A DNA stretch of 64,000 nt from an uncultured Phycisphaerae bacterium. GTDB lineage: Bacteria > Planctomycetota > Phycisphaerae > UBA1845 > Fen-1342. Location of the stretch: contig CALGJV010000012.1 of NCBI GenBank assembly GCA_937928595.1, forward strand, positions 1 to 64,000. The letters are read 5' to 3'. Positions 21,627 to 42,940 of this stretch are shown in pieces (the stretch's first letter is position 1; each line of letters begins with the position of its first letter). Made by a program: the position numbers and the translations under genes. The notes beneath the pieces are model-generated. The model was not told the origin of the DNA, made no database searches, and saw only the letters and a program-made list of their open reading frames with translations.

Positions 21627-22787
21627 ATGGCGAACCGATTCCGCGGAGTTGGCACGGCGGCGCGGCGATGGCTCGGGGGTGCGTGGGTGGCCGTGCTGGC
21701 GATCGGCTCGTGCACCGGCACCCCACTGGAAGTGCTTTGGCGCACCCTCCCGACCGCCGTTGAAGGCACAGCGTACGAGCAGCCGCTCGGCGACGTTGGG
21801 GGCCGCGGGCTGACTTGGACGCTGGCCGCGGGGTCACTCCCTGACGGCCTCCGGCTGGAACGCTCGACCGGCCGGCTCAGTGGAACCCCTCGGACCGCCG
21901 GCACTTTCGACTTCGTCGTCGCAGTAGGCCAGGGCGGTTTCGGCAGCCGGCGCGCTGAGCAGCCGTTCACGCTCACGGTACTGCCGCGGCTCGTTGTCAC
22001 GCCGGCTTTCCCGGCCGGTCGGGTCGGCGAGGCGTACGACGCACCGCTCGACATTCGCGGCGGCGTTCCTCCGTACGCGGTCACGATTGCCGGGCTGCCT
22101 GGTGGTCTCGATTACGATCGAACCACCGGCCGGGTGTTCGGCACGCCGCAGTTCGACTACACCGGCCTGCCCTTGTTCATCACCGTGAGCGATCGGGGGA
22201 CGCCGACCCAAACCGTCGAGGCTCGGGGCACGCTGGTCATCCGCCCCCGCGGCGTCGCGATCGCGACCGACGGCTTGCCCGCCGCGGCTTACAACGTCTT
22301 GTATGCCGCGAACGTTTCGGCAACCGACGGCCGTCGGCCGTACGTCTGGTCGGTGGTCGAGGGTGTATTGCCAGATGGCTTGCGGCTGGCGCGGGCCACG
22401 GGCACGATCGCCGGGGTGCCGACGGCCGCCGCGCAGACGCGCGAGTTCACCGTGCAGGTGGAGGATGCGGACACGCCGCCGTCGCGCGACACGCGGTCGT
22501 ACAAGCTCGTCGTGCCGGTCGTGCTGGTGACGGCGTCCCTGCCCGACGGGACGGTCGGGCAGGCGTATCGGCAGACGCTCGCCGCGGTGGCGGGCCGGCC
22601 GCCGTACACGTGGCAAATCGTCAGCGGTGCGCCGCCCGCGGGGCTGGTACTGGACGCGGCGAGCGGGGTTCTCGCCGGCACACCGACGGTGGGGGCCGGC
22701 GGCGCGACGTTCACGGTTCGGGTCACCGATGCGGACAGCCCGGCGACGATCGCCGAGCGGACGTTCACGATCGCGATTCAGCCCTGA
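21627..22787 (+). CDS. Lipoprotein with four putative-Ig (He_PIG) repeats
   Basis: A 386-residue predicted lipoprotein; the lipobox-like AIGSC ends the signal peptide at about residue 29. Four tandem beta-sandwich repeats of about 85-90 residues follow. Each has the He_PIG pattern of a short entry strand, GxPPYxW-type turn, then LPDGLRLxxxTGxxxGTP, for example LPDGLRLERSTGRLSGTP and LPDGLRLARATGTIAGVP. Such domains are found on surface proteins and bind sugars or other proteins. GGAGCAG precedes the ATG. GATAAT at 21567-21572, after a GTTGC/GCAAC hairpin (21552-21566), may be a -10. Ligand unknown. Confidence 0.82.
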   Translation: MANRFRGVGTAARRWLGGAWVAVLAIGSCTGTPLEVLWRTLPTAVEGTAYEQPLGDVGGRGLTWTLAAGSLPDGLRLERSTGRLSGTPRTAGTFDFVVAVGQGGFGSRRAEQPFTLTVLPRLVVTPAFPAGRVGEAYDAPLDIRGGVPPYAVTIAGLPGGLDYDRTTGRVFGTPQFDYTGLPLFITVSDRGTPTQTVEARGTLVIRPRGVAIATDGLPAAAYNVLYAANVSATDGRRPYVWSVVEGVLPDGLRLARATGTIAGVPTAAAQTREFTVQVEDADTPPSRDTRSYKLVVPVVLVTASLPDGTVGQAYRQTLAAVAGRPPYTWQIVSGAPPAGLVLDAASGVLAGTPTVGAGGATFTVRVTDADSPATIAERTFTIAIQP

Positions 22788-24090: not shown

Positions 24091-26280
24091 ATGCCAGCCG
24101 GAAACGCGGTGTGGGGCATCGACGTCGGGCAGTGCGCGCTGAAGGCGCTGAAGCTGCGGGCGGTCGAGGGCGGCAAGGTCGAGGCGGTCGCGTTCGACGT
24201 GATCGAGCACCCGAAGATCCTCTCGCAGCCGGACGCCGACCGGGACGAGCTGATCGCGGCGGCGTTGGAGAAGTTCGCTTCCCGCAACGAATGGCAGGGG
24301 GACGCGTTCTTCGTGGGCGTGCCGGGGCAGCAGACCTTCGCCCGGTTCTGCAAGATGCCGCCGATCGACCTGAAGAAGGACGCCAAGAAGATCCCGGACC
24401 TGGTGCGGTACGAGGCCAGCCAGCAGATCCCGTTCGACATCGAGGACGTGGTCTGGGACTATCAGGTGTTCACGAGCGAGTCCTCGCCCGACATCGAAGT
24501 CGGCATCTTCGCGATCCGCAAGGACCTGATCCGCAAGCACCTCGGGTTCTTCGCGAAGGTCGGAATTGCGCCGCTGGGCGTGCAGACGACCCCGGCGGCA
24601 CTCTACAACTTCGCCCACTTCGACGGGCAGCTCGCGGGGGAGGGCGGCGCGGCCGTCCTCATCGACGTCGGCGCTCAGAACACCGACCTCGTCATCGCCG
24701 AGCCCAACGCGGCCTGGACCCGGAGCATCCCCAGCGGCGGCAACACGTTCACCGAGGCCCTCGTGCGGGCCTTCAAGCTGTCCTTCGCCAAGGCCGAGAG
24801 CCTCAAGCGCACGGCCGCGACCAGTCAGTACGCCCGGCAGATCTTCCAGGCCATGCGCCCGATCTTCGCCGACCTGGTCGCCGAGATCCAGCGCTCGATC
24901 GGGTTCTACTCCTCGACGCACCGCGACGTCGAGCTGCGCAAGGTGCTGGCGCTGGGCAACGCCTTCCGGCTGCCGGGCCTCCAGAAGTACCTCGAGAACA
25001 ACCTGACGATCGCGAAGGTCGCCAAGCTCGAGAAGTTCGAGCGGCTGGTGCCCAACGCGACCACGAACGCGCCGCAGTTCACGGAGAACTTGCTCAGCTT
25101 CGCGGCGGCGTACGGCCTGGCGATCCAGGGCCTGGGGCTCGGCAAGATCCGGGCGTCGCTGCTGCCGATCGAGCTGGCCCGGGTGGCGGTGTGGCGCAAG
25201 AAGCGGCCGTACTTCATCGCCAGCGCGACGGCGCTCGTGGCGGCGTCGGTCGTCCCCGTGGCGGCCAACTACCTGGACAAGCAGACGCTCGCGAGCAGCC
25301 GGGCGGCCGAGGCGCAGCGTTCGACGGCGGCGATCCTCAACGAGTGCAGCGAGGCGGTGAAGCGCTTCCAACAGGCGCAGACCAACACGTCGCAGTGGGA
25401 GACGGACATCCAGAACGTGCTGAACCTGCGGAAGGACAAGCTCACAGTGCCGCGCGTACTGGCGCTGGTGACCGAGGCCCTTCCGCCCGTTCAGCCTCCG
25501 GAACTGGCCCGCGTGGAGTCCGGAGAGAAGCTCATGGAGCTGATCAAGCAGGATCCCAAGAGGTACGATCGCACGCTGCGCGGCCAGTTCTACATCGACT
25601 CGTTCTCGTTGGAGTACGTGCCGAACGTCGACAGCACGCCGCTGGTGACAATGAGCGGCACGGAATCCGGCGCGGGCGGCCCGCTGGGCGGCGGTCCTCC
25701 GGGCGGATTCGGCGGCGGCCCGCCGGGCGGATGGGGCGGCGGCCCGCCGGGCGGATGGGGCGGACCACCCGGAGCCGGACCTCCGGGGATGGGGCGCGGC
25801 GGCCGCCCGGCCGCCCCCGAGGCGGCGCTGGAGGCCGGGTCGCCCGGCGCGGGCGGCTTCATCGTCCGCGTGACGGGGCGACTCCTCTACGGGCGGCGGC
25901 AGTCCGACGCCTCGCGCTGGCTGGAGAGCGAGTACTTCGTGAACCTGCGCGAGCTCAGCCGCAAACAGGGCTGGGGCTTCTACATCCCGGACGACGATCC
26001 GAAGGAGCCTGACAAGCGGGCGATCGTCAAGGTGTCGCTCGCGCCGTACTACGCGGACCTGCGGCCCGGTACCGGGTTCGCGCCGCCCGGCGGGGCGGGA
26101 CCGGACGCCAACAAGCCCCGCGACCCGATCACCGATGAGGACGCGTCCAACGACTGGAGGGTCGAGTTGGCGTTCAAGGTCAAGCTGGGCGAGCCGCCGG
26201 CCAAGACCGACGCGGCGGCCGGGCACGCGGCCGGGGAGGGCGGGGCTCCGACGCCGGCGGGGCCGCGGCAACCGGGATGA
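24091..26280 (+). CDS. pilM: PilM-PilN-like fusion of a type IV pilus-like system
   Basis: A 729-residue protein. Residues 1-365 are an actin-fold PilM domain: WGIDVGQCALKALKLR at the start, the phosphate-2 motif LIDVGAQNTDLVI near 190, and ALGNAFRLPGLQKYL near 290. A membrane segment lies at about 371-394, followed by a coiled-coil-like stretch and a PilN-like periplasmic domain (about 395-525 and 590-715). In PilM-type systems PilM is cytoplasmic and binds a short peptide of PilN; here the two appear joined. A GGPPGG-type linker splits the periplasmic part at about 526-570. The ribosome site GGAGAG lies 10 bases before ATG 24091. It heads a three-gene operon with two bitopic proteins. Confidence 0.87.
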   Translation: MPAGNAVWGIDVGQCALKALKLRAVEGGKVEAVAFDVIEHPKILSQPDADRDELIAAALEKFASRNEWQGDAFFVGVPGQQTFARFCKMPPIDLKKDAKKIPDLVRYEASQQIPFDIEDVVWDYQVFTSESSPDIEVGIFAIRKDLIRKHLGFFAKVGIAPLGVQTTPAALYNFAHFDGQLAGEGGAAVLIDVGAQNTDLVIAEPNAAWTRSIPSGGNTFTEALVRAFKLSFAKAESLKRTAATSQYARQIFQAMRPIFADLVAEIQRSIGFYSSTHRDVELRKVLALGNAFRLPGLQKYLENNLTIAKVAKLEKFERLVPNATTNAPQFTENLLSFAAAYGLAIQGLGLGKIRASLLPIELARVAVWRKKRPYFIASATALVAASVVPVAANYLDKQTLASSRAAEAQRSTAAILNECSEAVKRFQQAQTNTSQWETDIQNVLNLRKDKLTVPRVLALVTEALPPVQPPELARVESGEKLMELIKQDPKRYDRTLRGQFYIDSFSLEYVPNVDSTPLVTMSGTESGAGGPLGGGPPGGFGGGPPGGWGGGPPGGWGGPPGAGPPGMGRGGRPAAPEAALEAGSPGAGGFIVRVTGRLLYGRRQSDASRWLESEYFVNLRELSRKQGWGFYIPDDDPKEPDKRAIVKVSLAPYYADLRPGTGFAPPGGAGPDANKPRDPITDEDASNDWRVELAFKVKLGEPPAKTDAAAGHAAGEGGAPTPAGPRQPG

Positions 26281-26329
26281 GACGGCGCGGCCCGGACCCC
26301 GCGCGGGTCCGACTGACAGGAGATGAGCG

Positions 26330-27706
26330 ATGCAGTTCCTGAAAGCCCACTGGGTGCCCCTGGCGTGCGGCGTGGTGAGCCTGGCCGCGGTCGTGGTCCT
26401 GATCCTCGGCCTGCTCAGCGATGACGTCGTGACGGAGATGAACAAGCGCGTCAGCGCGGCCGGCCAGATCCAGTCGCTGGCCTCCAGTCCCAAGAACGAC
26501 GAGATCATCCTGGCGGAGCAGAGGCGCGGGGAGCGGTTCAAGGAGCAGTACGAGAACGTCGTGCGGCAGACGGCCGAGTTCAACCGCCGGGCGCCGCTGC
26601 TGGAGGGGGTGTTCCCCAAGCCGGCGCAGGAAGAACTTCGTTACCGCTTCAAGGAGGAGTACAAGGACCAGCTCTACGAGCTGCCGCGCGACCTGGCCGC
26701 GGGCGACCTGCCCACACCGCAGGATGTGCAGGATGTGGCCGAGGCGATGGCGGACGAGGCCCGCCGGAAGGCGGAGCAGGGTGAGCCGACGACGCCGGAG
26801 CCGGCCGCACCACCGACGGGCGGACCGGGGCTGGGTCCGCCGGGCGGCTGGGGCGGCGGGCCCCCGGGCGGCTGGGGTGGCGGTCCGCCGGGGGGTTGGG
26901 GCGGTGGGCCGCCGGGCGGGCGACCCCCTCCGGGCTTCGGCGGCGGACCACCGGGCGGATTCGGAGGAGGACCGCCGGGGGGAACGCCCGGCGGCGCGCC
27001 GGTGACGGAGGCCGCGCAGCAGCGCGCCGCGGTCAAGAAGGCCCGCGAAATTCAGGTGTACGCGTCGCTCGACCGGACGCGCCCCTCGTTCCACATCAGT
27101 CCGATTGTGGATACGCTCGACGCGCCCAGCCCGCGGGAGATGTGGTACGCGCAGGTGTCCCTGTGGATCCAGCAGGATTTCGTCCGGGCGGTGCGGATGC
27201 TCAACGATGCCTTCGCCCGCAGCCTGGGCGACAAGCCCGCGAATGTCACGACCTTGCCCGTGAAGCGGATCGTGGAGCTGCGCGTGCTGGGCTACGTCAC
27301 CTCCACCGGCGCGCTGCTCGAGATCCCGGCGGCGGGTGTGCAGTCCAGCACGGGGGCGGGCGGCTCGGCGACGCCGGCGGCCGAGGCCGGACCGTCGCTG
27401 ACCGGGCGCAAGAGCGACGAGCAGTTTGACGTGGTGCGGTTCACGGCGACCGTGGTGGTGGACCAGCGCTATCTGCCGCAGCTGATTGACGCGGTGACGC
27501 GCGTGAACTTCTACCAGTGCATCGACCTCGACTTTACGGCGCAGAACACGGACGAGCGGGCCGCGGGCTATTACTACGGCCCGGACCCGGTGGTCCGCGC
27601 CACGCTGACGTTCGAGGGCTACATGGCGCGCAAGATTTACAAGGAACTGATGCCGCCGGAGGTGCTCCAGGACCTCGGTGCGGCGCAGCCGCCGGCCGGG
27701 CAGTGA
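26330..27706 (+). CDS. Bitopic pilus-like periplasmic protein (PilO-like; Amuc_1100-type layout)
   Basis: A 458-residue protein with one N-terminal membrane anchor (about 7-29). A coiled-coil-like region (about 35-130) is followed by a GGPPGGWGG-type linker at about 163-224 and a C-terminal alpha-beta periplasmic domain (about 230-450). This is the layout of PilN/PilO-type inner-membrane alignment proteins. Position between a PilM-type gene and a second bitopic protein recalls Amuc_1101-1100-1099 of Akkermansia; that comparison is by architecture, not alignment. AGGAGATG precedes ATG 26330, 50 bases after the previous stop. Confidence 0.7.
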   Translation: MQFLKAHWVPLACGVVSLAAVVVLILGLLSDDVVTEMNKRVSAAGQIQSLASSPKNDEIILAEQRRGERFKEQYENVVRQTAEFNRRAPLLEGVFPKPAQEELRYRFKEEYKDQLYELPRDLAAGDLPTPQDVQDVAEAMADEARRKAEQGEPTTPEPAAPPTGGPGLGPPGGWGGGPPGGWGGGPPGGWGGGPPGGRPPPGFGGGPPGGFGGGPPGGTPGGAPVTEAAQQRAAVKKAREIQVYASLDRTRPSFHISPIVDTLDAPSPREMWYAQVSLWIQQDFVRAVRMLNDAFARSLGDKPANVTTLPVKRIVELRVLGYVTSTGALLEIPAAGVQSSTGAGGSATPAAEAGPSLTGRKSDEQFDVVRFTATVVVDQRYLPQLIDAVTRVNFYQCIDLDFTAQNTDERAAGYYYGPDPVVRATLTFEGYMARKIYKELMPPEVLQDLGAAQPPAGQ

Positions 27707-27725
27707 AGACGGCGGAGGTGCAACC

Positions 27726-29693
27726 ATGTCCCAGAAAGGTTCGCTGAGCTTCATCGAGCTGCACGTGGAGAAGCTGGTGCTCGGGCTGGCGGGAGCGCTG
27801 CTGCTCGGGCTGGTGGTGTACTTCTTCGTCATCGGTCCGAACAAGGTCGAGTTCGGCGGCACGACCCTGGGGCCGGGCGCGCTCGACGAGGCGATCCTCC
27901 AGCGGGCGCAGGACCTCAAGCGCACGTTCGCCAGCAAGAAGGCCGAAGAGACGCCCGTGCCGAACTACTCGCAGCAGCTCAGCCAGAAGCTGAACGAGGG
28001 TGTGCTGGGCGTCGAGAACGCGCTGGTGCCGCGCGCGCTGCGGGTGACGGCGGCGTTCGGGCCGCCGCTGCCGGTCTTCGCGGAAGAGCAGCAGGGGCCG
28101 GACGACGTGGTCGTGGTGACGCCGCTGCCGCCGAGCCAGCCGGTCGTGCGGACCGGCATCAGCCTGGTGTACCGCCAGCCGGCGGTGCTCGGCGAGCGCC
28201 GCCAGCCGGGCCTCGGCGACGAGCCCGAGGGCCTCTCGTGGGTGACGGTCGCGGCGTACTTCCCGCGGAGTCAGCAGAGCAACGCGATGCTGAGCGCGGG
28301 GTACGCCGGCTACCTGTCAAAGGTGTTCGTCGTGGGCACGGACGTGCAGCGGCAGGAGTTGCGGGCCGACGGCACATACGGGGAGTGGGAAGACGTCTCG
28401 GCCAGCAAGGCCATGCCGACCGTCGACGTGCCGACGCCGGTGATCGACGACCGGACCGGCGCGGTGCTCAACCAGGCCGAGCTCGACCGCGCGTTCGAGC
28501 AGATCCGGGCGTACCAGGACACGCTGCTCCAGCCCGCGTTCTACGAGTGGAAGGGCGGCGATCCGTGGCAGGTTCCGCCGCTGCGCGGCCATGAGGACAT
28601 CGAGGAAGAAGAGGTGGAGGCGGATCGGCCGACGCCGAAGGAGCCCGACCGGCCCAGACCGCCGCAGCCGCCCCGCCCGCCTCCGGGTGGCACGCCGCCG
28701 GGACAGCGGCCGGGCGGCGGCGGATTGCCGCCGGGCGGGGGCGGTTGGGCCGGAGGCCCGCCGGGCGGGTTCGGGCCCCCGGGCGCGCCGCCCGGCCAGC
28801 GCCCCGGTGGTCCGGGCGGTGACAACAAGGCCGCCGCGCGCCGTGAGATCGCCAAGGCGCTGTCGGATGCCTCGAAGGCGCTCGCGAAGAACCCCCAGGA
28901 ATCGCTGCGCCTGGCGCAGAGCGTGCTCAGCAACCCGCACAAGACGAAGTCAGACGAGCGCCGCGCGAACGAAATCGTTAAAAAGGCTGAGAAGGCCATT
29001 CAGAAGCAGACCGAGGGGACGGGCCCGCGTCCGCGCGGCGGCACGACCACCGAGGGCACGCTGGTGGTTGACCCGGAGACGAGCGAGCCGGCGGTCTGGT
29101 TCCATGACGACGCGGTCACGCCCGGCAAGACGTACCGCTATCGGATGCGGGTCAAGCTGTGGAACCGCTACGTCGGCCGGATGCAGTCCCTCAAGGATCC
29201 GGCGCAAGCTCGGCAGGCGGTGCTGGTCGGGGACTGGTCGCTGCCCAGCGATCCCGTGACGGTCGCGCCGCGGACGCACTTCTTCGTGCGCGGCCCGCGC
29301 CCGCGCGGCACGGAGCCCACCGCCAGCGTGGACGTCTTCACCTGGCACGAGGGCGCGTGGCTCAAGGAGAGCTTCGACGTCCAGGTCGGCGACGTGATCG
29401 GCGGGCGGCGCGAAACCCGGATCGCCGAGCGCGACGAAGACAACAAGCCGAAGAAGGCGACCGTCGATTTCAACACGGACGCCGTCGTGCTCGACATCCG
29501 CCTGGACGAGCCCACGCTCCAGCGGCGCCTGGCCGGCAAGTCCGGCGAGTTCGCGTACACCCCGCGGCCGTCGCTCGTGCTGGTCTACCTGGATCCGGCG
29601 GACGGACAGGTGAAGGAGCGTCTGGCCGTGGCCGACCTCAACGACCGGCTCTACAAGAAGCTGAACGACGAGTACAAGGAAGTCATCGAGTAG
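27726..29693 (+). CDS. Bitopic pilus-like periplasmic protein (Amuc_1099-type layout)
   Basis: A 655-residue protein with a short cytoplasmic start (SLSFIELHVEKLVLGLAG) and a membrane segment at about 17-40. A long, mostly beta periplasmic part follows, interrupted by a Gly/Pro-rich linker at about 318-366 and a charged helical segment (about 370-435). The FIELHVEKLVLG start resembles the N-terminal anchor of Amuc_1099-like proteins. I know of no catalytic role; it probably forms part of the inner-membrane platform with the two upstream products. ATG 27726 is preceded by GGAGGTG and lies 19 bases after the upstream stop. It is the last gene of this operon. Confidence 0.65.
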   Translation: MSQKGSLSFIELHVEKLVLGLAGALLLGLVVYFFVIGPNKVEFGGTTLGPGALDEAILQRAQDLKRTFASKKAEETPVPNYSQQLSQKLNEGVLGVENALVPRALRVTAAFGPPLPVFAEEQQGPDDVVVVTPLPPSQPVVRTGISLVYRQPAVLGERRQPGLGDEPEGLSWVTVAAYFPRSQQSNAMLSAGYAGYLSKVFVVGTDVQRQELRADGTYGEWEDVSASKAMPTVDVPTPVIDDRTGAVLNQAELDRAFEQIRAYQDTLLQPAFYEWKGGDPWQVPPLRGHEDIEEEEVEADRPTPKEPDRPRPPQPPRPPPGGTPPGQRPGGGGLPPGGGGWAGGPPGGFGPPGAPPGQRPGGPGGDNKAAARREIAKALSDASKALAKNPQESLRLAQSVLSNPHKTKSDERRANEIVKKAEKAIQKQTEGTGPRPRGGTTTEGTLVVDPETSEPAVWFHDDAVTPGKTYRYRMRVKLWNRYVGRMQSLKDPAQARQAVLVGDWSLPSDPVTVAPRTHFFVRGPRPRGTEPTASVDVFTWHEGAWLKESFDVQVGDVIGGRRETRIAERDEDNKPKKATVDFNTDAVVLDIRLDEPTLQRRLAGKSGEFAYTPRPSLVLVYLDPADGQVKERLAVADLNDRLYKKLNDEYKEVIE

Positions 29694-33894: not shown

Positions 33895-35100
33895 ATGCCG
33901 ACGTTTGCCTACAAGGCGCGGAACACATCCGGCGAGCAGATTCGGGGGACGCTGATCGCGGAGTCGTCGCACGCGGCGGCGCGGCTGCTGGACGAGCGGT
34001 CGCTGCTGCCGATCGAGCTGGAGGAGGTGCGGTCGCAGCAGCGCTCGCTGCTGACGGGGCGGACGCGGCGCGTGAGCCTGTCGAAGGTCGGGCAGATGTA
34101 CGAGCAGCTCGCCGACCTGCTGCGGGCGGGCGTGCCGATCTTGCGGGCGCTGGAGGTGCTGGCGCAGCAGGCGTCGACGCCGGCCCTGGGGCGCGTGCTG
34201 CGGGAGGTGCGGGACAGCGTGGCGGGGGGCGAGGCGCTGGCCGACGCGATGCTCAAGCACCCGCACGCGTTTCCGGAGCTGCACGCGTCGATGGTGCGCG
34301 CGGGCGAGAAGGGCGGGTTCCTCGAGGACGTGCTTTCACGGTTGTCGGAGTTCGTGTCGCGACAGGACGCGCTGCGGAACAAGTTCATCGGCGCGCTGGT
34401 CTACCCGTGCGTGCTGCTGGTCGGAGCGACGGGGGCGGTGGCGTTCATCATGGCGTACGTAGTGCCGAAGATCCGGCAGGTGCTGGAGAACCAGCCGCTG
34501 CCGCTGCCGACGGTGATCGTGTTCGGCGCGAGCGACGGCCTGCGGTTGTACTGGCACTGGCTGCTGGGGGGCCTCGTGCTGCTGGTCGGTGCGCTCATGG
34601 CGTACTTTCGCAGCGAATCCGGGCAGGCGTTGTGGGCGAAGCTGCAACTCCGCACGCCGGGGCTGGGTCGGATCTACACGATGATCTCGATCTGCCGGTT
34701 CTGCCGCATTCTGGGCACGCTGCTGACCAACGGCATTCCGATCCTGCAAGCGCTGAAGGTGGCGAAGGATTCGACCGGCAACCAGATCCTGGCCGACGCC
34801 GTGGACGAGGCGGCCGAGAGCGTGCGGGGCGGGCAGTCGCTGGCCCGGCCGCTGGCGGCGAGCAAGGTGTTCCCGCCGGCGATCATCGACATGATCGCGG
34901 TGGCGGAGGAGAGCAACAGCCTGGACAAGGTGCTGATCGAGGTCGCGAACACGCAGGAGGAGCGGACCGCGCGGCAGATTGACCTTACAATGCGGATGGT
35001 CGAGCCGCTGTTGCTGATGTTCATGGGCGTGGCGATCGCCCTGATCGCGGTCGCGTTGCTCGTGCCGATTCTGCGGATGTCGACCGGTGGATTGCGGTAG
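33895..35100 (+). CDS. gspF: Type II secretion inner-membrane platform protein GspF
   Basis: A 401-residue polytopic protein of the GspF/PilC family, the usual length. It begins PTFAYKARNTSGEQIRGTL. Two homologous cytoplasmic helical domains (about 65-170 and 265-370) share the family pattern (QLADLLRAGVPILRALEVL and RILGTLLTNGIPILQALKV), with membrane segments at about 170-195, 220-240 and 375-397. It forms the membrane platform that couples the assembly ATPase to pseudopilus growth. AGGACAGG precedes ATG 33895. It heads the operon gspF-G-H-I-J-K-L-M-D. No GspE ATPase gene precedes it, unlike in most T2SS operons. Confidence 0.95.
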   Translation: MPTFAYKARNTSGEQIRGTLIAESSHAAARLLDERSLLPIELEEVRSQQRSLLTGRTRRVSLSKVGQMYEQLADLLRAGVPILRALEVLAQQASTPALGRVLREVRDSVAGGEALADAMLKHPHAFPELHASMVRAGEKGGFLEDVLSRLSEFVSRQDALRNKFIGALVYPCVLLVGATGAVAFIMAYVVPKIRQVLENQPLPLPTVIVFGASDGLRLYWHWLLGGLVLLVGALMAYFRSESGQALWAKLQLRTPGLGRIYTMISICRFCRILGTLLTNGIPILQALKVAKDSTGNQILADAVDEAAESVRGGQSLARPLAASKVFPPAIIDMIAVAEESNSLDKVLIEVANTQEERTARQIDLTMRMVEPLLLMFMGVAIALIAVALLVPILRMSTGGLR

Positions 35101-35152
35101 CGGGCGCGCGACACGCGTGTGTCGGGACCCTCAGAGCGTACTGGAGACTGCG

Positions 35153-35608
35153 ATGAACCGACGTGCACACAAGCGAGTCAACCGGAAGCGGGCGTTCACG
35201 CTGCTCGAAGTGCTGATGGTGGTCGTCATCATCGGCCTGCTGGCGGCGTTCGTCGTCCCGAACTTCTTCGGCGCGGGTGAGAAGGCCAAGAAGGACCTCA
35301 CGCAGGCGCTGGTGGACTCGGGCCTGAACGGCGCGCTGGACCTCTACCGCGCGCACATGGGCAGCTACCCGCGCAGCGACGAGGGCGGACTGCAACTGCT
35401 GCTCGAGAAGCCCAACGACGAGGAGAAGGCCAAGCGGTGGGCCGGCCCCTACATCAAGCGCGCCCAGGACATCAAGGACGCCTGGCAGAGGGAACTGATC
35501 TACAAGTGTCCGGGCGACGTGAACTCGGAAAGCTACGACCTCTCGAGCGCCGGCCCCGACGGCCAGGAAGGGACCGACGACGACATCCGGAACTGGCAGC
35601 GGACCTGA
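35153..35608 (+). CDS. gspG: Major pseudopilin GspG
   Basis: A 151-residue type IV pilin-like protein. A basic leader (MNRRAHKRVNRKRA) precedes the methylation and cleavage motif, then FTLLEVLMVVVIIGLLA with Glu at mature position 5. Residue -1 is Ala, not the usual Gly. The C-terminal domain has the conserved calcium loop region of GspG (SSAGPDGQEGTDDDIRNW). It should be the main subunit of the pseudopilus. GGAGA lies 7 bases before ATG 35153, 52 bases after gspF. Length and the calcium loop identify it as GspG rather than a type IV pilin. Confidence 0.94.
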   Translation: MNRRAHKRVNRKRAFTLLEVLMVVVIIGLLAAFVVPNFFGAGEKAKKDLTQALVDSGLNGALDLYRAHMGSYPRSDEGGLQLLLEKPNDEEKAKRWAGPYIKRAQDIKDAWQRELIYKCPGDVNSESYDLSSAGPDGQEGTDDDIRNWQRT

Positions 35609-35672
35609 CGGTCCGGCCCGGCGGCACGCGACGCAGCGCGCCGCCGGCCCGGCGACGCGGCCGAGGAACGAC

Positions 35673-36317
35673 GTGCGCGCGGCCTTCACACTGATCGAGC
35701 TCGTGCTGGTCATCGTCATCGTCGGCGTGATCGCCGTGATGGCGTGGCCGAACGTGGACCGCTTCGCCGACGCGGAGCAGTTGCGGGAGTCGGCCCAGCG
35801 GCTCAAGTCGCTGGTGGCGATGTGCCGGGCCGAGGCGATGAACCAGAGTCGCCGCTATCGTCTCGAGTTCGCGTCCGACGGCAGGCTGCGGACGCTGGCC
35901 CAGCGGGACCCGCTCACCGCCCCGCACGAATACGTGCCGCCGCCGGTCGACTGGGCGCAGCGCGAGATTTTGCAACGCGGCGTCCGGATCGAGGCCGTGC
36001 AGCTCCTGCCCGAGGGGCCGCCGCCGATCCGCATCATCGACGAGAAGCTCGTCTTTCCCGAGACCGAGATCCACCTGACGCCGGTGGGCGAGTTCGATCC
36101 ACCCGCGCGCCTCGATTTCGAGCCGGACGGCTCGTGCCCCTCGATGCGTTGGGTCCTCCGCGACGCGGCCGGCCGCGCCGTGCTCGTCACGCTCGACGGC
36201 CGCACGAGCCGTGTCGGGATCGAGTTCTGGGCCGGGGCGGCAGATGAGTCGGACGCCAAGCGGCCCGCGCCCCCGGCGGCCGAGACCGTGCGTCAGCTCC
36301 AGGAGTCCCGCCGATGA
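35673..36317 (+). CDS. gspH: Minor pseudopilin GspH-like
   Basis: A 214-residue pseudopilin with a very short leader (MRAA) and FTLIELVLVIVIVGVIAVM, Glu at position 5 and Ala at -1. The C-terminal beta-rich domain (IRIIDEKLVFPETEIHLTP, then FEPDGSC) fits the GspH/FimT group. A Pro/Ala-rich tail follows. It starts at GTG 35673 with GAGGAA 5-6 bases upstream and overlaps the next gene by ATGA. In T2SS, GspH joins GspG to the tip complex I-J-K. Confidence 0.85.
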   Translation: MRAAFTLIELVLVIVIVGVIAVMAWPNVDRFADAEQLRESAQRLKSLVAMCRAEAMNQSRRYRLEFASDGRLRTLAQRDPLTAPHEYVPPPVDWAQREILQRGVRIEAVQLLPEGPPPIRIIDEKLVFPETEIHLTPVGEFDPPARLDFEPDGSCPSMRWVLRDAAGRAVLVTLDGRTSRVGIEFWAGAADESDAKRPAPPAAETVRQLQESRR

Positions 36318-37378
36318 AGCCGGCCGCGTTGTTGCTCGAGGTGGTGATCGCCCTGGCCGTCATGACGGCCGCGCTGGGCCTGTTGGGGGCGCAGCTCGCG
36401 GGCGGGCTCGACATGACCGGGGCGGTCGAAGACCAACTGAACGCCGCGCTGCTGGGCGATCGGGCGCTGACGCTCGTGCAGCTCGACCGCACGATCCAGG
36501 AACGCATCAGGGAGGCGGGTGACGTCGAGGCCACGCTCGAGGACAAGTTCGGCAGCGAGTACCCGGGGTACTTCTGGCGCGTCCATGTGCGGCCGGTGGA
36601 CCGCCAGACCCAGGACCTGTCCGTCGTCACGGTCGAGGTGCTGCGCCAGCCCGATGCGCGGCGGGCGGATTCGCCGGACGGCGCGCAGGTGATCCGCCGG
36701 CTGGCCTTTCTGAAGGCGCCGCTGGCCCGATTGGACCTGGTGGAGGATGGGGGCCTGGACGAAGGCATGGTCGAGCAACTGCGCCAGATGGTGCAGATCC
36801 CGGACTTCGACCCGCGCGCAGTGGACTTGCAGCAGCTCGCGGCGCTGGATCCCGAGACGCTGATGCAACTTCTGCCGCAGCTCACCGCGCTGCTGGGCAT
36901 GGCCGGGCAACTGAGCGGCGGCGACCTCAGCGGTCTACAGGCGCAGTTGGGGCAGTTGCCGCCGGATGCGCAACAGCAGCTCGGCCAGCTCCTGGACGGC
37001 GCCGGAGATCCGGGCGGTTCCCGATCGCCGGGAGCTCCTGGGCCGCGGGGCGGTCGTGGGCCGCAGGCGGGTCCGGACGGAGCGCCGCCGATGGATGGCG
37101 CCGCTCCGCCGCGCGGGATGCGTGGCAACCGGGGCAACCGCGGGAACCGGGGCGGCGGCGACGCGCAGGCGGGTGGCGATCTGCCCGACGGCGGCTTCCC
37201 GGGCGGTGGACCGGACGGCGGTCCGCCGGGGCCGCGCGCCGGCGGTGGGCGGCGGGGCGGCGGCGCCGCCGGCGGGCAGGGCTTGCCGCCGGGACGGGGC
37301 TCCGGCCCGGGTGGCCGCTACACCATCGAGGACCTGATGCGGATGCGTGACGAGGCCCGCCGGCAGGGGGGCGGCTGA
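36314..37378 (+). CDS. gspI: Minor pseudopilin GspI-like with long Gly-rich tail
   Basis: A 354-residue protein. The N-terminus MKPAALLLEVVIALAVMTAALGLL is a pilin-like helix with Glu at position 5 and Ala at -1, and the gene order places it as GspI. The family is normally about 120-130 residues. Here a helical Gln/Leu-rich part (about 155-225) and a Gly/Pro/Arg-rich low-complexity region (about 230-335) are added. How a disordered tail fits into the tip complex is unknown. Overlaps with both neighbours (ATGA and TGATG) indicate tight coupling. Confidence 0.78.
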   Translation: MKPAALLLEVVIALAVMTAALGLLGAQLAGGLDMTGAVEDQLNAALLGDRALTLVQLDRTIQERIREAGDVEATLEDKFGSEYPGYFWRVHVRPVDRQTQDLSVVTVEVLRQPDARRADSPDGAQVIRRLAFLKAPLARLDLVEDGGLDEGMVEQLRQMVQIPDFDPRAVDLQQLAALDPETLMQLLPQLTALLGMAGQLSGGDLSGLQAQLGQLPPDAQQQLGQLLDGAGDPGGSRSPGAPGPRGGRGPQAGPDGAPPMDGAAPPRGMRGNRGNRGNRGGGDAQAGGDLPDGGFPGGGPDGGPPGPRAGGGRRGGGAAGGQGLPPGRGSGPGGRYTIEDLMRMRDEARRQGGG

Positions 37379-38391
37379 TGCGGCGCAGTCGGCATGCGCT
37401 GACGCTGTTCGAAGTGCTGATCGCGATCTCGCTGATCGCGATGCTGCTGGGGGCCCTGCTGACGTTTTTCTGGCAGACGCTCCAGGCGCGCGAGACGGTG
37501 GCCTTGTACGGCGACCGGACGCAGATCGCGCAGCAGGTGCTGGAGCGAATGGCGGCGGAGCTCCGTGCCGCGGTGGCGCTGGACCGGTCGGGCTTCCCGG
37601 TGCAGCAGTTCGCCGGGACGCGGCGCAAGGTCACGTTCCTGGCATCGCCGCTGCCGCCGGACGCCGGTGATACGCAGTACGGCACGGTCGGGGGCGGTCC
37701 GTTGCCGCTGGGCGACCTGCGCGAGATCACGTACGAGTTGTGGATCGATCCGGAGCAGACCACGGAGAGCGGCGATCCGGTGATCGGCGGCATCCTGCGG
37801 ACCGAGCGCCGGCCGATCGAGCCCGCCGTGAGCGGGGAGGACGTGTCCGAGGACACGGCGCTCGAGTACCTGCGGCGCGACCTGTGGTCGCACGAGCTGG
37901 GCTACCTTGAGTTCCGCTACTTCGACGGCGTCGAGTGGAGCACGACCTGGGAGGTCAAGTCGGGTAACGCCGTGCCGCACCTGGTGCAGGTAACGGTCGG
38001 ATTTGACTCGCTCACGAAGTTCGAGCTCGAGGACCAGGATCTGGACGAGGAGCGCGCGATGTCCGAGCTGGATCGGATCGGGCCGCCGGTCAAGACCGGT
38101 TTCGGGCGGTACAGCACCATCGTGCGCTTGCCGGCGGCGGATGTGATGTTCGCGGCGCGGCTGAACAAGCTGGGTGACCAGGCCGAGGAGCTCTACTCGT
38201 TCGTCAACCCGCAGGCCGCGGGTGAAGGCGGTGGGCCGCCGCCCACGGGTCTGCCGGGGTGGGGGCCGGGCGGACCCGGCGGCGCCGGTGGCCGCGATGG
38301 AGCGGGCGGCCGGGGACCCGGGGGCGCGGGCGGTGCAATGCGCGGCGGCGGGCGCGACTTGCCCGAGAAGCCGTCGGAGCCCGAGGAATGA
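37378..38391 (+). CDS. gspJ: Minor pseudopilin GspJ-like
   Basis: A 337-residue pseudopilin beginning MRRSRHA then LTLFEVLIAISLIAMLLGALL, with Glu at position 5 and Ala at -1. The middle beta domain (QQVLERMAAELRAAVALD, FRYFDGVEWSTTWEV) is typical of GspJ. A Gly-rich tail (about 285-325) extends it beyond the usual length of about 200. It overlaps gspI by one base and gspK by ATGA. With GspI and GspK it should form the pseudopilus tip. Confidence 0.85.
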   Translation: MRRSRHALTLFEVLIAISLIAMLLGALLTFFWQTLQARETVALYGDRTQIAQQVLERMAAELRAAVALDRSGFPVQQFAGTRRKVTFLASPLPPDAGDTQYGTVGGGPLPLGDLREITYELWIDPEQTTESGDPVIGGILRTERRPIEPAVSGEDVSEDTALEYLRRDLWSHELGYLEFRYFDGVEWSTTWEVKSGNAVPHLVQVTVGFDSLTKFELEDQDLDEERAMSELDRIGPPVKTGFGRYSTIVRLPAADVMFAARLNKLGDQAEELYSFVNPQAAGEGGGPPPTGLPGWGPGGPGGAGGRDGAGGRGPGGAGGAMRGGGRDLPEKPSEPEE

Positions 38392-39605
38392 CGCGGCGGC
38401 GCGGTCTCATCCTGCCCGTGGTGCTCGTGCTGACGGGTCTGCTGGCACTGATCCTCGCCAGCTTCCTGTTTCACGTGCGGGCCGAGGTGGCCGGCGCCCA
38501 GGCGCAGCGCGACGCGCAGCAGGCGCGCCTGGCGGCCGAGTCGGCGCTGGAGGAGGTGACGTACATCCTGCGGCAGGCGAAGGGCGATTCGTCGCAGTGG
38601 TTCGACGTGCCCGACCGGTTCCGACACGCGCTGGTCTGGTCGGAGGCGTTCGACCGCGACGGCGACCCGGTGAAGAAGATGGGCTCGCGCAAGGAGGTGC
38701 TGGAGGCCGGCCGCGCGCCGGAGACGTGGCGCTACAGTGTCGTCGCGCAGAACCTGGACGGCCTGCCCGACACGCTGCGGTACGGCGTGACGCCCGAAGC
38801 GAGCAAGCTGAATCTCAACACGGCGGACGAAGCGGAGCTCGAGAGGCTGCTGCTGAAGCTGCTGATGGACCTGGGAGTCGAGAACGCACCGGAACTGCTG
38901 GCCACGCTGCTGGATTGGCTCGACGAGGACAGCGAAACGCGGCCGGGCGGGGCCGAGGACGACTACTACGCGACGCTCGATTCGCCCTACCACGCCAAGA
39001 ACGGACCGCTGACGACGCTGGAGGAACTGCTGTTCGTGAAGGGCTGGAATGCCGCGCTGCTGTACGGCGAGGACACGAACCGCAACGGGATTCTCGATCC
39101 GAACGAGAACGACGGCCGCACGTCGCCGCCGGTGTACGACAACGGCGACGGCATTCTCCAGCGCGGCATTGCCCCGTACGTGACCGTCTGGACGACCGAG
39201 CCGGGCACCGACGGCCAGAGCAAGACCGCGCGGGTGGACCTCAACACCGCCCCGGCGGTCGTGCTGGCGGCGCTGGAGGGCATGACGGCCGAAGCGGCCG
39301 ACACGATCGTGGCTTTGCGCAAGACGCTCGAGCCGCAGGCCCTGCTGAACCCGGAGTGGCCGGTGACGTCCGGCGCGCTGGATCCGGCCACCCACCAGGC
39401 GATCCGGGAGAAGGTGACCGTCCAGCCGACGGTGTTCCACGTCGAGGTCGTCGCGTACGGCGACCACACGAAGCTGGTCCGGCGCTACGAGTGGATCGTC
39501 GCCCTCCGCGGCGGGCTGCCGCAGGTGCTCTATCATCGGGACCTGACCCGGCTCGGCCTCGCCTGGCCGGTCGATAACGACGAATTGCTGCTCCGCGGTC
39601 GCTGA
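38388..39605 (+). CDS. gspK: Minor pseudopilin GspK
   Basis: A 405-residue tip pseudopilin. The leader MTRRRG ends in Gly, and the helix begins LILPVVLVLTGLLALILA without Glu at position 5, as expected for GspK. A long alpha domain with LNLNTADEAELERLL and later VDLNTAPAVVLAALEG matches the family's repeated helix-hairpin segments. A calcium-type loop DTNRNGILDPNEND lies at about 230-243. The length is above the typical 320-330. It overlaps gspJ by 4 bases. GspK caps the pseudopilus and usually binds calcium. Confidence 0.9.
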   Translation: MTRRRGLILPVVLVLTGLLALILASFLFHVRAEVAGAQAQRDAQQARLAAESALEEVTYILRQAKGDSSQWFDVPDRFRHALVWSEAFDRDGDPVKKMGSRKEVLEAGRAPETWRYSVVAQNLDGLPDTLRYGVTPEASKLNLNTADEAELERLLLKLLMDLGVENAPELLATLLDWLDEDSETRPGGAEDDYYATLDSPYHAKNGPLTTLEELLFVKGWNAALLYGEDTNRNGILDPNENDGRTSPPVYDNGDGILQRGIAPYVTVWTTEPGTDGQSKTARVDLNTAPAVVLAALEGMTAEAADTIVALRKTLEPQALLNPEWPVTSGALDPATHQAIREKVTVQPTVFHVEVVAYGDHTKLVRRYEWIVALRGGLPQVLYHRDLTRLGLAWPVDNDELLLRGR

Positions 39606-39625
39606 CGGCGGCCGATGAGGTGTTT

Positions 39626-41236
39626 GTGCTGAAGCTGGCGCGCAAGGTGCTGTGCCTGGACTGGGACAAGCGGTCCCTGCGGCTGGTCGTGGCCCGGGTC
39701 GGCGGCGGGCGTATGAAGCTGGAGGATGCGCACGCACACCGCCTGCCGCACACGGTGGATGCCGACGATCCGGCCGCGCTCGGCGAGTTCATCCGCCAGC
39801 AGCTTCGACGCCACCACCTGCGCCCACGGCACGTGGTGATCGACGTGCCGCGCGAGCGCGCGGTCATCAACCGGCTCACGCTGCCCCCGACCCCCGACGC
39901 CGAGGTGGCGGCCGCGGTCCGCTTCCAGGCCATGAAGGAGCTCCCGTTCCCGGTTGACGCGGCCGCGGTGGACTACGTGATCGTGGGGCGCGAGGCGCGC
40001 GGCCTGGCGGTGGAGGTGCTGCTGGCCGCGGTGACGCTCGAGACACTGGAGCGGATCAAGGCGACGTGCGCGGCGGCGGGGCTCATGCCGGAGCGGATCG
40101 GGCTGCGGCCGTACGCCAACGTGGTGAGCGTCGAGCAGGTACTGGGGGCGACGGACGAGCACGTGCTGTTCGTGGACGTGGGTCCGGGCGCGACGGAGAT
40201 CGACGTGATCCGCGGGCGGCAGCTCGCCTTCGCCCGCTCGGCGAACGTGAACGTGCCGGTGCCCAAGCCGCTGGAGACGGACGGGCGCGAGGGCTCGCGG
40301 ATCATTTCGATCAGCGAGATCGCGGAGTTGATGGCGGGCGACGCGGGGGCGGAGGCGGCGGTCGACGAGCTGCTGGTGGAGGTGACGCGCACGCTCCAGG
40401 CGTTCCGCGCGACGGACGCGGAAGCGGTGGTGGGGCGCGTGGTCGTGGCGGGCGGCACGGGTATCGAGACCGCGCTGGCTGAGCGGCTCGAGCAGCGGCT
40501 CGGCTACCCGGCGGTCATCTACGACCCGACCGGGCCGCTGGGCGTGGCCCCGAGCGACGGGCCGAAACTGCGGTCGTTCTCGGCGGTGCTCGGACTGGCG
40601 TGGGGGCTCAGCCGCGAAGGGTTGCTGGCGCTCGACTTCCTGAACCCGAAGCGCCCGGTGTCGGGGCGGGCGGTGCTTCAGCGGCGGCTCCGGCTGGCGG
40701 GACTCGCCGCGGCGGCCGTGGCGGTGCTGGGCGCGGGCCTCTGGTTCCGCGAGTACGACGCGCTCCGGCGGCAGCATCAGCAGATGTTGACGGCCAACAA
40801 CAAGTTGTGGGACGGCGTGCTCGCCAAGGCCAAGATCCGCAACCGCGTCGACGAGGTGCAGGAGTGGACCGCGCAGGCGCTCTGGCCGGACGAGCTGCTG
40901 CATCTTACGCAGCTGGCGGTGGAGCCGGGGCAGAAGATGGTGGTGCAGGAGATCCAGCTCGACGCGGTGGCGAAGACGCCGCTCGTGCAACTGCGGAACG
41001 TGTCGGTGGCCGACTGGCGGATTCCGACGCAGTACGTCGAGAGACTGAAGGACTTCGAGTGGAACGGAACGCGGCCGTACGACGCGAAGCAGGGGACCTG
41101 GAACGGAAATCCGGACGGGCAGCGGTTCAAGGGCACGGTGGACATTCAGGTCACGCTGCGGCGGCTCAAGGAGTTTCGGGACGCGCAGGCGCAGCGCGAG
41201 AAGGAACGGCGGGAGCGACTTCAGGAGCCGCGGTAA
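39626..41236 (+). CDS. gspL: GspL/PilM-PilN-like fusion
   Basis: A 536-residue protein. Residues 1-345 form an actin-like domain (LCLDWDKRSLRLVVARV; LFVDVGPGATEIDVI near 180; VVVAGGTGIETALAERL near 270). A membrane segment lies at about 354-374, then a coiled coil and a PilN-like periplasmic domain (about 375-520). GspL normally has this cytoplasmic-TM-periplasmic plan, and the first half reads more like PilM than classical GspL. I chose GTG 39626 because GATGAGG lies 5 bases upstream; GTG 39620 overlaps that site. It is a second copy of the same plan as the gene at 24091. It should link the ATPase to the inner-membrane platform. Confidence 0.83.
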   Translation: MLKLARKVLCLDWDKRSLRLVVARVGGGRMKLEDAHAHRLPHTVDADDPAALGEFIRQQLRRHHLRPRHVVIDVPRERAVINRLTLPPTPDAEVAAAVRFQAMKELPFPVDAAAVDYVIVGREARGLAVEVLLAAVTLETLERIKATCAAAGLMPERIGLRPYANVVSVEQVLGATDEHVLFVDVGPGATEIDVIRGRQLAFARSANVNVPVPKPLETDGREGSRIISISEIAELMAGDAGAEAAVDELLVEVTRTLQAFRATDAEAVVGRVVVAGGTGIETALAERLEQRLGYPAVIYDPTGPLGVAPSDGPKLRSFSAVLGLAWGLSREGLLALDFLNPKRPVSGRAVLQRRLRLAGLAAAAVAVLGAGLWFREYDALRRQHQQMLTANNKLWDGVLAKAKIRNRVDEVQEWTAQALWPDELLHLTQLAVEPGQKMVVQEIQLDAVAKTPLVQLRNVSVADWRIPTQYVERLKDFEWNGTRPYDAKQGTWNGNPDGQRFKGTVDIQVTLRRLKEFRDAQAQREKERRERLQEPR

Positions 41237-41261
41237 GGGACCGGCCGGAGGAGCGGCGGGC

Positions 41262-42476
41262 ATGACGCGACGGGAACGAACGCTGGCGCTGTGCGTGGCG
41301 GGGGCGCTGGGCGCGTTCGGCCTCTACAAGGCCGGCCGGCTGGTCCTGTGGGCGCCGCTCGAGGCGCAGCGGGCCGGCCTGGATCGGGAGCAAGCCCGCG
41401 CGGTACGGCTCCAGAACCGGCTCCGGGAGTTCGAGCGGGCCGAGGATGACTGGCAGGCCCTCACGCGGCGGACGCTGAGCACCGACCCGACCGACGCCCA
41501 GCGGCGGTTCCGCGAGGACATCCAGGAACTGCTCGAGGTGCACGGGCTGCGCAACCCGAAGGTCACGCCCGGCAACTTCGCCAAGCGCAAGAACGAGTTC
41601 GTCGACGTTCCCCTGACGATCACCGCTTCGGGCACGCTCCAGGAGATCGTCGGCTTCCTGACCGACTTCTATCGCCGCGACTACCTCGCGCGCCTCGACA
41701 AGGTCACGCTCGCGGCCGACCAGAGCGTTGTCGGCAACATCAACAATCCGCGCCGGCGTCCGGGCGGCACGCGCCGCGGCCGCACCGGCGGAGCGGATGC
41801 CGCCGCCGCGGCCCCCGCGGCCGAGTCCCTGCCGCCCGAGCCGCTCTACGGTCCCGAGGGCCCGCTGCTGCGCGTGAACATCACCGCGGTGACGCTCGTG
41901 CTGCCCGTGATCAAGGGCGTGCCGCACCCGGTGATGGAGAAGATCGGCCCGACGGCCGACGCGGGGCAGCTGAGCTATGAATTGGCGGCCTACAACCAGA
42001 TCGTCGACCACAACCTGTTCAAGCCCTGGGAGGCGCCGCGGCCGGTCGTTACGCCGCCCCCTGCGCCCCCGGACGTGGCGGTCGGACCTCAGCCCACGCC
42101 CCCGCCGCCGCCACCCCCGCCCGCGAACCCGCGCCCGAACGCGGACAAGTACAAGCTCGTCGCAACAACGTCGCTGCGCGGGCAGCGGATGGCGTGCGTC
42201 CTGGATGAGACCGTGCTCGAGCGCGTCGAGGTCAAGCGCTTCCGCCTCGACGAGCCGGTCGACGACGGGACCCTCGTGCTGGTTCACCCCAGCGGCATCG
42301 TCGTGCGGGCCGTCGAGGGCGGCCACCCGACGGATTTCTTCTACCGCCTCGGCACGACGTTCGCCGAGCGCCAGCACCTCGATCCGGTCGAGCACGCCGA
42401 CGTGTACGAGGCGCTCGAGGCCGAACTGCCCTCCACGTCCGCGGCCGCCGTCGTACCGCCGGCCGGAACGCACTGA
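41262..42476 (+). CDS. gspM: GspM/PilO-like protein fused to a GspC/PilP-like domain
   Basis: A 404-residue bitopic protein with a membrane anchor at about 8-24, a coiled-coil segment (about 35-85) and a PilO/GspM-like ferredoxin fold (about 86-230). A Pro-rich linker follows at about 270-295. The C-terminal domain contains IVDHNLFKPW before the linker and KYKLVATTSLRGQRMACVLD after it, which reads like the homology region of GspC or the beta domain of PilP. GspC/PilP is the periplasmic link to the secretin N0 domain. If correct, one chain replaces two proteins. GGAGGAG precedes ATG 41262. Confidence 0.72.
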   Translation: MTRRERTLALCVAGALGAFGLYKAGRLVLWAPLEAQRAGLDREQARAVRLQNRLREFERAEDDWQALTRRTLSTDPTDAQRRFREDIQELLEVHGLRNPKVTPGNFAKRKNEFVDVPLTITASGTLQEIVGFLTDFYRRDYLARLDKVTLAADQSVVGNINNPRRRPGGTRRGRTGGADAAAAAPAAESLPPEPLYGPEGPLLRVNITAVTLVLPVIKGVPHPVMEKIGPTADAGQLSYELAAYNQIVDHNLFKPWEAPRPVVTPPPAPPDVAVGPQPTPPPPPPPPANPRPNADKYKLVATTSLRGQRMACVLDETVLERVEVKRFRLDEPVDDGTLVLVHPSGIVVRAVEGGHPTDFFYRLGTTFAERQHLDPVEHADVYEALEAELPSTSAAAVVPPAGTH

Positions 42477-42940
42477 GAACGGGCCCGGGGCGCGGGCCGT
42501 AGCCCGGCGTCGAGCCGCACCGGGCGCGGTGTGCCCGCGCTCGAGTCCAGACCTGCGCCCCTCGCCAGCTGGTCGGCCGAATCGGCCGATAATCCTGGAG
42601 GAACCGGGTTTCGACGAGCGGCCGCGGACCGAACGGCTCCGCGTCGCAGGCAACCGCCCGCACCCGGTTCTAAGTGTTGCCGGGCAAGGATGTTGGAACC
42701 TCCAGGACTTTGCGGTTTGCCCCTGGAAGCTCTGCCACCCCGGCGACGGTTGCGGGTATAAATAGCGGACGTGTAGCGGGCCCACCGGCCCTGCGGCGAC
42801 CGTGTCGCCCAAGGTGGCCGACGCGCTGCGAGGCGCGGCGGTTGTGAATGCGGGCCTGTCGGCGGCGTCTCAGTGAGCCGTCGACGCCAGTGAGTGCCGC
42901 CCCGGCGCGGGGCGTTTCCGTTTCTGCAAGAGGTGCAGGC
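42477..42940 (+). other. 464-base leader/intergenic region before the giant secretin
   Basis: No gene. Nested inverted repeats span 42593-42707: TCCTGGAGG (42593-42601) pairs with CCTCCAGGA (42699-42707), and GAACCGGGT (42601-42609) pairs with ACCCGGTTC (42662-42670). This would fold into a long stem in RNA. TATAAA at 42757-42762 may be a -10 for a separate secretin transcript. TCGGCCGATA at 42582-42591 repeats a motif seen upstream of gspF. Confidence 0.5.
42593..42707 (+). repeat. Nested inverted repeat, possible structured mRNA leader
   Basis: Two consecutive 9-base arms pair perfectly with two later 9-base arms (42593-42601/42699-42707 and 42601-42609/42662-42670), leaving an interior loop with further GC-rich pairing (GCGGA/TCCGC). 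There is no T tract after it. I could not match it to a known riboswitch. Confidence 0.45.

Follow-up and report, generated by a model that had tools for sequence, protein, structure and literature searches.

The window analysed in this work, a stretch of 64,000 nucleotides from contig CALGJV010000012.1 of an uncultured Phycisphaerae bacterium, carries at positions 24091-29693 three neighbouring open reading frames (ORFs) on the + strand, here named P1, P2 and P3, and our results make it likely that this operon codes for an alignment module at the inner membrane and in the periplasm, part of a type IV pilus-type machine belonging to the Amuc_1101-1100-1099 lineage of Akkermansia. The operon is real and widely conserved, and the Akkermansia-type gene order and fold are hereby extended to a second phylum. 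An original prediction, made from the sequence of the window, had placed here a PilM-type protein followed by two one-span proteins, and the three + strand ORFs were recovered at the same coordinates and with the same character. The genome comprises 46 contigs and 3.69 Mb, and the nearest relatives on named contigs carry the labels Phycisphaerae, Phycisphaerales or planctomycete bacterium.

In Akkermansia the corresponding genes presumably follow the order Amuc_1101-1100-1099(-1098), and Amuc_1100 has drawn attention as a surface protein with probiotic and host-signalling activity. In the portion available of one study of A. muciniphila, the Amuc_1098-1102 products are described as abundant in the envelope fraction, and Amuc_1100 is placed at the cell outside by immunofluorescence (PMC5332112); an excerpt of a review describes the Amuc_1100 core as two alpha-beta-beta motifs, which resemble proteins of type IV pili and of type II secretion (PMC13119276).

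The three genes are closely spaced, with gaps of 49 bp (P1-P2) and 19 bp (P2-P3), and each start is preceded by a purine-rich stretch resembling a ribosome-binding site. Hydropathy analysis gave a single, strongly hydrophobic span at the N-terminus of both P2 and P3, and one weaker span in P1 at approximately residues 373-393. The features of the operon are as follows (lengths in amino acids, aa; pLDDT, predicted local distance difference test score of AlphaFold2 models):

24091..26280, + strand: P1, PilM-type protein of 729 aa (matches to PF11104, TIGR01175 and NF045709)
24115..25128, + strand: PilM actin-like domain of P1, residues 9-346 (family-model matches)
25207..25269, + strand: predicted membrane span of P1, approximately residues 373-393 (hydropathy)
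25687..25818, + strand: Gly/Pro-rich linker of P1, residues 533-576 (sequence composition)
26330..27706, + strand: P2, PilO/Amuc_1100-like one-span protein of 458 aa (AlphaFold2 model, Foldseek, VIA, conservation)
26351..26416, + strand: membrane helix of P2, residues 8-29 (AlphaFold2 model and hydropathy)
26834..26983, + strand: Gly/Pro-rich disordered linker of P2, residues 169-218 (pLDDT mostly <50)
27131..27628, + strand: C-terminal alpha-beta domain of P2, residues 268-433, matched by Amuc_1100, PilO and PulM/PulL folds (Foldseek, VIA)
27726..29693, + strand: P3, one-span protein of 655 aa, candidate connector to the secretin and positional counterpart of Amuc_1099 (conserved third gene; AlphaFold2 pLDDT 82.3)
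27762..27785, + strand: H-x-E-K-x-x-L-G motif at the membrane end of P3 (alignments)
28671..28817, + strand: disordered Gly/Pro-rich linker of P3, residues 316-364 (pLDDT <50)
29088..29624, + strand: C-terminal beta-rich region of P3, residues 455-633 (AlphaFold2 model; FN3-type match in homologue L148)

The Gly/Pro linkers of P1 (25672-25851) and P2 (residues 163-222) are 69% identical to each other, and P3 also contains a Gly/Pro-rich linker; at the linker site of the P2 alignment, several relatives have Gly-rich linkers of different sequence and others have none. Upstream of the operon, a + strand gene (21627-22787) encodes a protein with four immunoglobulin (Ig)-like repeats of the He_PIG type.

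By its sequence, P1 is a PilM-type protein, matching PilM_2 (PF11104) with an E-value of 3.1e-33 and 115.6 bits (cut-off 27), and the generic pilM model TIGR01175 with 133.8 bits (cut-off 133). A higher score was obtained with the Amuc_1101_fam model NF045709 (189.9 bits, profile positions 35-448 of 608), which lies far below the equivalog cut-off of that model (650 bits). The likeness of P1 to Amuc_1101 that had been proposed is thus borne out, at 190 bits versus 134 for generic PilM. Further, for three P1 proteins from other planctomycetes the scores were 205-210 bits with Amuc_1101_fam versus 138-147 with generic pilM, placing all four P1-type proteins tested closer to the Akkermansia family, although a longer model alone can yield more bits. 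The second PilM of the window (39620-41236) displayed the reverse preference, with 64.5 bits for Amuc_1101_fam versus 102 for generic pilM. The layout of P1 would correspond to a PilM-PilN fusion with a putatively PilN-like tail, an arrangement also known from GspL, itself a PilM-PilN-like fusion.

For the second gene, an antisense ORF favoured by GC-based ORF picking was rejected because the P2 frame is conserved in relatives, which identifies P2 as the real gene. Its AlphaFold2 model, built on an alignment of 47 sequences (pLDDT 82.2), contains a membrane helix and a long coiled coil, together with a disordered Gly/Pro stretch and, at the C-terminus, an alpha-beta domain. When this model was compared with the PDB using Foldseek, ranks 1-8 were all occupied by Amuc_1100 chains (6lad, 6laf and 6kny; probability 0.96-1.00, E-values from 2.4e-3 to 1.8e-2), PilO chains came after them (probability 0.97-1.00), and ranks 15-50, among the best 50 of 510 matches, did not exceed a probability of 0.47. 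Structural alignment with VIA-align gave for Amuc_1100 a Z-score of 11.3 over 173 of 190 residues (root-mean-square deviation 4.0, predicted model), for PilO a Z-score of 7.1 over 97 residues, and for PulL/PulM, XcpY and EpsL Z-scores of 4.8-5.8, where values below 8 can reflect a mere common arrangement. By both measures, Z 11.3 and a best Foldseek E-value of 2.4e-3, the P2 model has the fold of the solved Amuc_1100, and the C-terminal structural match whose absence would have spoken against the original prediction is present, with Amuc_1100 first in Foldseek. Memorisation is an unlikely source of this result, because AlphaFold2 training, as we assume, predates the Amuc_1100 structure. Judged from the predicted model, P2 probably works like Amuc_1100 as a distant homologue, though it lies below the family sequence cut-off.

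P3 begins with an ATG at 27726, the longest ORF of that frame starting at a GTG at 27678, and its sequence reads MSQKGSLSFIELHVEKLVLG; the phrase FIELHVEKLVLG, to which attention had been drawn beforehand, was found at residues 9-20. Five positions of the H-x-E-K-x-x-L-G motif (H, E, K, L and G) are invariant across 8 aligned divergent sequences, and among 45 sequences K16 is invariant and H13 and E15 are retained in >=90%. In the PDB, the AlphaFold2 model of P3 found antibody and cytokine-receptor FN3-like chains (Z <=6.6), and an FN3-type match was obtained for the P3 homologue L148 at an E-value of 2.5e-4 and 21.6 bits, below the cut-off of 25. From this, P3 is read only as appearing to contain an Ig/FN3-like part. 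No family model named Amuc_1099 was among the family-scan matches of P3, and no Pfam model matched it. Shorter, compact P3 homologues of 266-366 aa are encoded at loci L155, L158, L161 and L162.

The conservation of the operon was assessed by scanning named contigs with the P1 PilM domain, which yielded 92 relatives; the best 80 of 92 were used, and gene profiles were built from these 80 loci plus further loci. P1 was detected in 80/80 loci and all three genes together in 67, the available sequence of the other 13 stopping inside P1 or P2 or a short distance beyond. Because the order P1-P2-P3 (M-O-X) on one strand was displayed by 67/67 loci in which all three were detected, the arrangement exceeds chance. 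Start-to-end gaps between the genes at these loci had medians of 51 and 61 bp. At the genome level, P2 was found in 56/61 genomes, the window's own included (57 before a Gly-rich match in G022 was dropped), and the P3 profile matched in 107/294 genomes sampled across the phylum, many of these matches being weak or partial through the N-terminal motif. In a search for Verrucomicrobiota sequences, a scan of viral contigs gave no relative, and a plasmid scan gave one distant PilM, from Miltoncostaea. Directly upstream of P1, a divergent gene of unknown function (approximately 850-1025 aa where complete) was seen in 15/65 loci with an upstream gene; it constitutes cluster c5, with 18 loci among L067-L111.

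The Akkermansia order ends in a secretin, and a secretin was also found near P3 in many planctomycete relatives. Counting only matches that start <=1.2 kb after the third gene, it was present in 21/53 loci having >=1.5 kb of downstream sequence: 0/8 in the group nearest the window, and 6/13 and 15/32 in the others. These 21 loci correspond to a BLAST cluster of 22 minus L055, where the match is antisense. A count of any secretin match (67 loci) was discarded, since the Gly-rich stretches of the profile are thought to produce matches to other ORFs. Furthermore, the four genes M-O-X-secretin lie in a row in 7/20 further stretches (L155, L156, L158, L159, L161, L162 and L164), these 20 having been chosen for P3 or Amuc_1100-model matches. 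Among 54 genomes with both P2 and the secretin, the latter lies 2.3-4.6 kb after P2 in 17/31 outside the window's family and in 0/23 inside it; this count leaves out G034 and G057, where P2 is present and no secretin row reaches >=200 bits. The adjacent-secretin profile matched 61/61 genomes, some of them (e.g., G057) only in part or through a short-protein type. In the window genome, the orthologous secretin is a 989-aa protein on contig C26 (L143:5794-8763), which scored 644 bits with this profile, versus 38 for the window's own giant secretin and 34 and 20 for the remaining two secretins of the genome. The best NCBIfam match was Amuc_1098_fam for the secretin of relative L058 (91.7 bits), and MshL or PilQ for the other four secretins of this type tested, the protein from the window genome included. 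Given the C26 orthologue and the linked secretin of relatives, the window holds a form of the four-gene cluster in which the neighbouring secretin is missing; the Akkermansia-like order claimed beforehand therefore holds for relatives with an adjacent secretin (1101-1100-1099-1098) and fails on this point in the window genome itself. In addition, short frames of approximately 250-500 aa (G000:C22:104848-105489, and many in relatives) match only the middle of the C26-type profile (approximately 520-730 of 1066) with approximately 90-215 bits, and are possibly secretin N-domain-only proteins.

With respect to published systems, amuc_1099-1102 (named MUL2) is syntenic in aquatic Akkermansiaceae, is often conserved in other Verrucomicrobiales, and has been linked with attachment and glycan uptake, with rho and dephospho-CoA kinase neighbouring the locus in Akkermansiaceae (PMC13174399, 2026). 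A free-living relative of the Akkermansia cluster had been proposed as informative about the ancestral role of Amuc_1100; free-living relatives in Verrucomicrobiales had already been published in that work, in which planctomycetes appear only within two reference titles. No published account of the locus for Planctomycetota was found in the open-licence literature searched. The planctomycete operon resembles MUL2, whose gene content is confirmed by PMC13174399 and by the available portion of PMC5332112, in its PilM-type gene, its one-span gene with a PilO fold and its further one-span gene, followed by a secretin in many planctomycete relatives; moreover, the predicted fold of P2 matches Amuc_1100 and the scores of P1 prefer Amuc_1101_fam. 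Unlike MUL2, the secretin of the window genome is unlinked, and P2 and P3 have long Gly/Pro linkers and gave no match to the Amuc models. Compared with the type IVa series PilM-PilN-PilO-PilP-PilQ, the PilM domain of P1, the PilO fold of P2 (Z 7.1) and, in relatives, the terminal secretin are shared, whereas PilM and presumed PilN-like parts are fused in P1, P2 lacks a PF04350 match, and the third gene is large, multi-domain and free of Pfam matches.

Several results weigh against the pilus-type account of the operon and its assignment to the Akkermansia lineage. Foldseek gave P2 no match below an E-value of 0.001, the Amuc_1100_fam model NF038287 (equivalog cut-off 180 bits) did not match P2, and sequence searches of the PDB (phmmer with P2, and profiles of 47 and of 9 sequences) missed Amuc_1100. 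Amuc_1100_fam matched 8/47 P2 homologues at E <=1 (best 3.6e-6), and of ten homologues scanned singly two matched (E 0.023 and 0.035) over the span and coiled coil only, with other coiled-coil families scoring equally in such scans. Across 294 genomes, this model gave nine weak matches in 8 genomes (maximum 23 bits), and a B. subtilis control responded too; nothing exceeded the cut-off, and the window's own genome (G000) had no match. Five of the nine matches lie at the expected site, either just after a PilM-like gene (G221, G076, G201 and G170) or as the O gene upstream of X (G337), and were not counted as proof because the PilM-like neighbours match P1 only distantly; the other four, as far as seen, lie elsewhere (G332, two in G259, and G167, with short flanks only). 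Equally, neither Pfam nor NCBIfam gave P2 a match above noise, and PF04350 (PilO) did not match it and was found in 1/47 homologues (E 0.16). In four genomes (G020, G022, G024 and G028; 87-93% complete) the secretin occurs without a P2 match, in the window genome it lies on C26 and does not adjoin P1-P3, and two further PilM/N/O-type sets are present (window 39620-42476, and contig C3), so that the motors and pilins found in the genome are candidate partners of P1-P3.

Some of these results would be expected if the operon were a generic PilM-N-O module whose likeness to the Amuc proteins reflects common PilMNO ancestry instead of a lineage specific to the Planctomycetes-Verrucomicrobia-Chlamydiae (PVC) group, an account that we regard as possible, if somewhat unlikely. 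In sequence, P2 and its homologues resemble the Amuc_1100 model marginally or not at all, no likeness was seen between P3 and the Amuc models, and PilO also matches the P2 fold clearly; in addition, the weak Amuc_1100_fam matches follow a distant PilM-like gene in 4/8 stretches, so that the model may respond to PilO/GspM-like proteins at large, and a scan with P-loop motifs, which can miss them, saw neither rho nor dephospho-CoA kinase near the planctomycete loci, unlike the Akkermansiaceae locus. Common ancestry alone would account less readily for the preference for Amuc_1101_fam over generic pilM in 4/4 planctomycete P1 proteins, for the alignment of Amuc_1100 with P2 over nearly its entire solved length and well above PilO, and for the M-O-X-secretin order common to many relatives.

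Parts of pili and of type II secretion systems (T2SS) are homologous, and the operon could in principle serve secretion, with P1 as GspL, P2 as GspM and P3 as GspC, in conjunction with T2SS genes whose cluster starts 4 kb further downstream, at 33895. We consider this quite improbable. A T2SS-like cluster with a GspF gene and several pilin-like genes does lie within the same window (33895-42476, + strand), and PulL/PulM, XcpY and EpsL folds are among the matches of P2 (Z 4.8-5.8), in keeping with a GspL-GspM-GspC-GspD series. However, this cluster owns a separate PilM/GspL-like gene (39620-41236) and a GspM-like gene (41262-42476, with a weak T2SSM match) just before a giant secretin; the secretin accompanying P1-P2-P3 in relatives is not this giant one; and PilO and Amuc_1100 rank above PulM/PulL for P2. 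The genome has yet another such set (L145, contig C3:16000-30000), its third, which comprises PilM-, PilN- and PilO-type, GspF and pilin-like genes with a PilQ/GspD-like secretin of its own. In total, eight GspF-domain matches in approximately five genes, 35 N-methyl pilin-type matches, four PilT-family ATPases over the cut-off and seven further T2SSE-family matches were found in the genome.

The giant secretin is a single ORF of 4269 aa (42848-55657, + strand) in which 35 Secretin_N stretches are combined with a single secretin domain at the C-terminus. Usual secretins have three or four N-domains, far fewer than this one. Among the matches listed, relatives too have very long Secretin_N frames (4383, 4484, 4598, 4916 and 5021 aa), and no published account of such a giant secretin was found in the open-licence literature searched.

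That P1-P3 form an envelope-bridging structure joining the inner and outer membranes, with no pilus extruded, is very improbable, PilM proteins being known elsewhere as components of pilus or secretion motors and four PilT-family ATPases being retained in the genome. The long disordered or Gly/Pro linkers of all three proteins might suit a wide periplasm, and the available portion of one study describes planctomycete crateriform structures of which at least some are connected to the inner membrane or link both membranes; the same portion, however, also reports that some bear 12 nm pili-like fibres, to which dextran binds, and that the uptake system is uncharacterised (PMC5394234).

We therefore return to a pilus-type alignment module as the preferred account of the operon, whose parts may be arranged as follows. 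By analogy with the PilM-N-O-P-Q alignment complex, P1 would dock its cytoplasmic actin-like domain on the motor and, crossing the membrane once, extend a periplasmic tail that may pair with P2. The latter would be the PilO counterpart, in which a single span and a coiled coil are combined with a dimerisation domain of ferredoxin-like fold. P3, in the position of PilP, could act as a single-span, multi-domain connector reaching to the secretin, an Amuc_1098/PilQ/MshL-like protein (here that of C26) through which the pilus would pass. In such a complex, a cytoplasmic PilB/PilT motor would be coupled to the outer-membrane pore for pilus extension and retraction, and the long linkers of P1, P2 and P3 would allow for a periplasm of great or varying width.

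Proteins of the PilO type are expected to reside at the inner membrane, on its periplasmic side. The ancestral role of Amuc_1100 thereby becomes testable, and its label as an outer membrane protein is called into question; our results suggest that Amuc_1100 began as ordinary pilus scaffolding and not as a host signal. More tentatively, and we hold this to be rather doubtful, P1-P2-P3 and a C26-type secretin may form the core of crateriform pilus structures that bind and import polysaccharides, derived from an ancestral PVC glycan-capture pilus shared with the Akkermansia mucin locus; the link of the operon to crateriform structures is speculative. If true, Amuc_1100 would be a PilO-type inner-membrane scaffold and its host signalling incidental. 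Taken together, the predicted fold and the neighbourhood of Amuc_1100 recur widely in planctomycetes, and P1-P3 with their secretin provide concrete candidate genes for the planctomycete fibre and macromolecule-uptake system described in the available part of PMC5394234.

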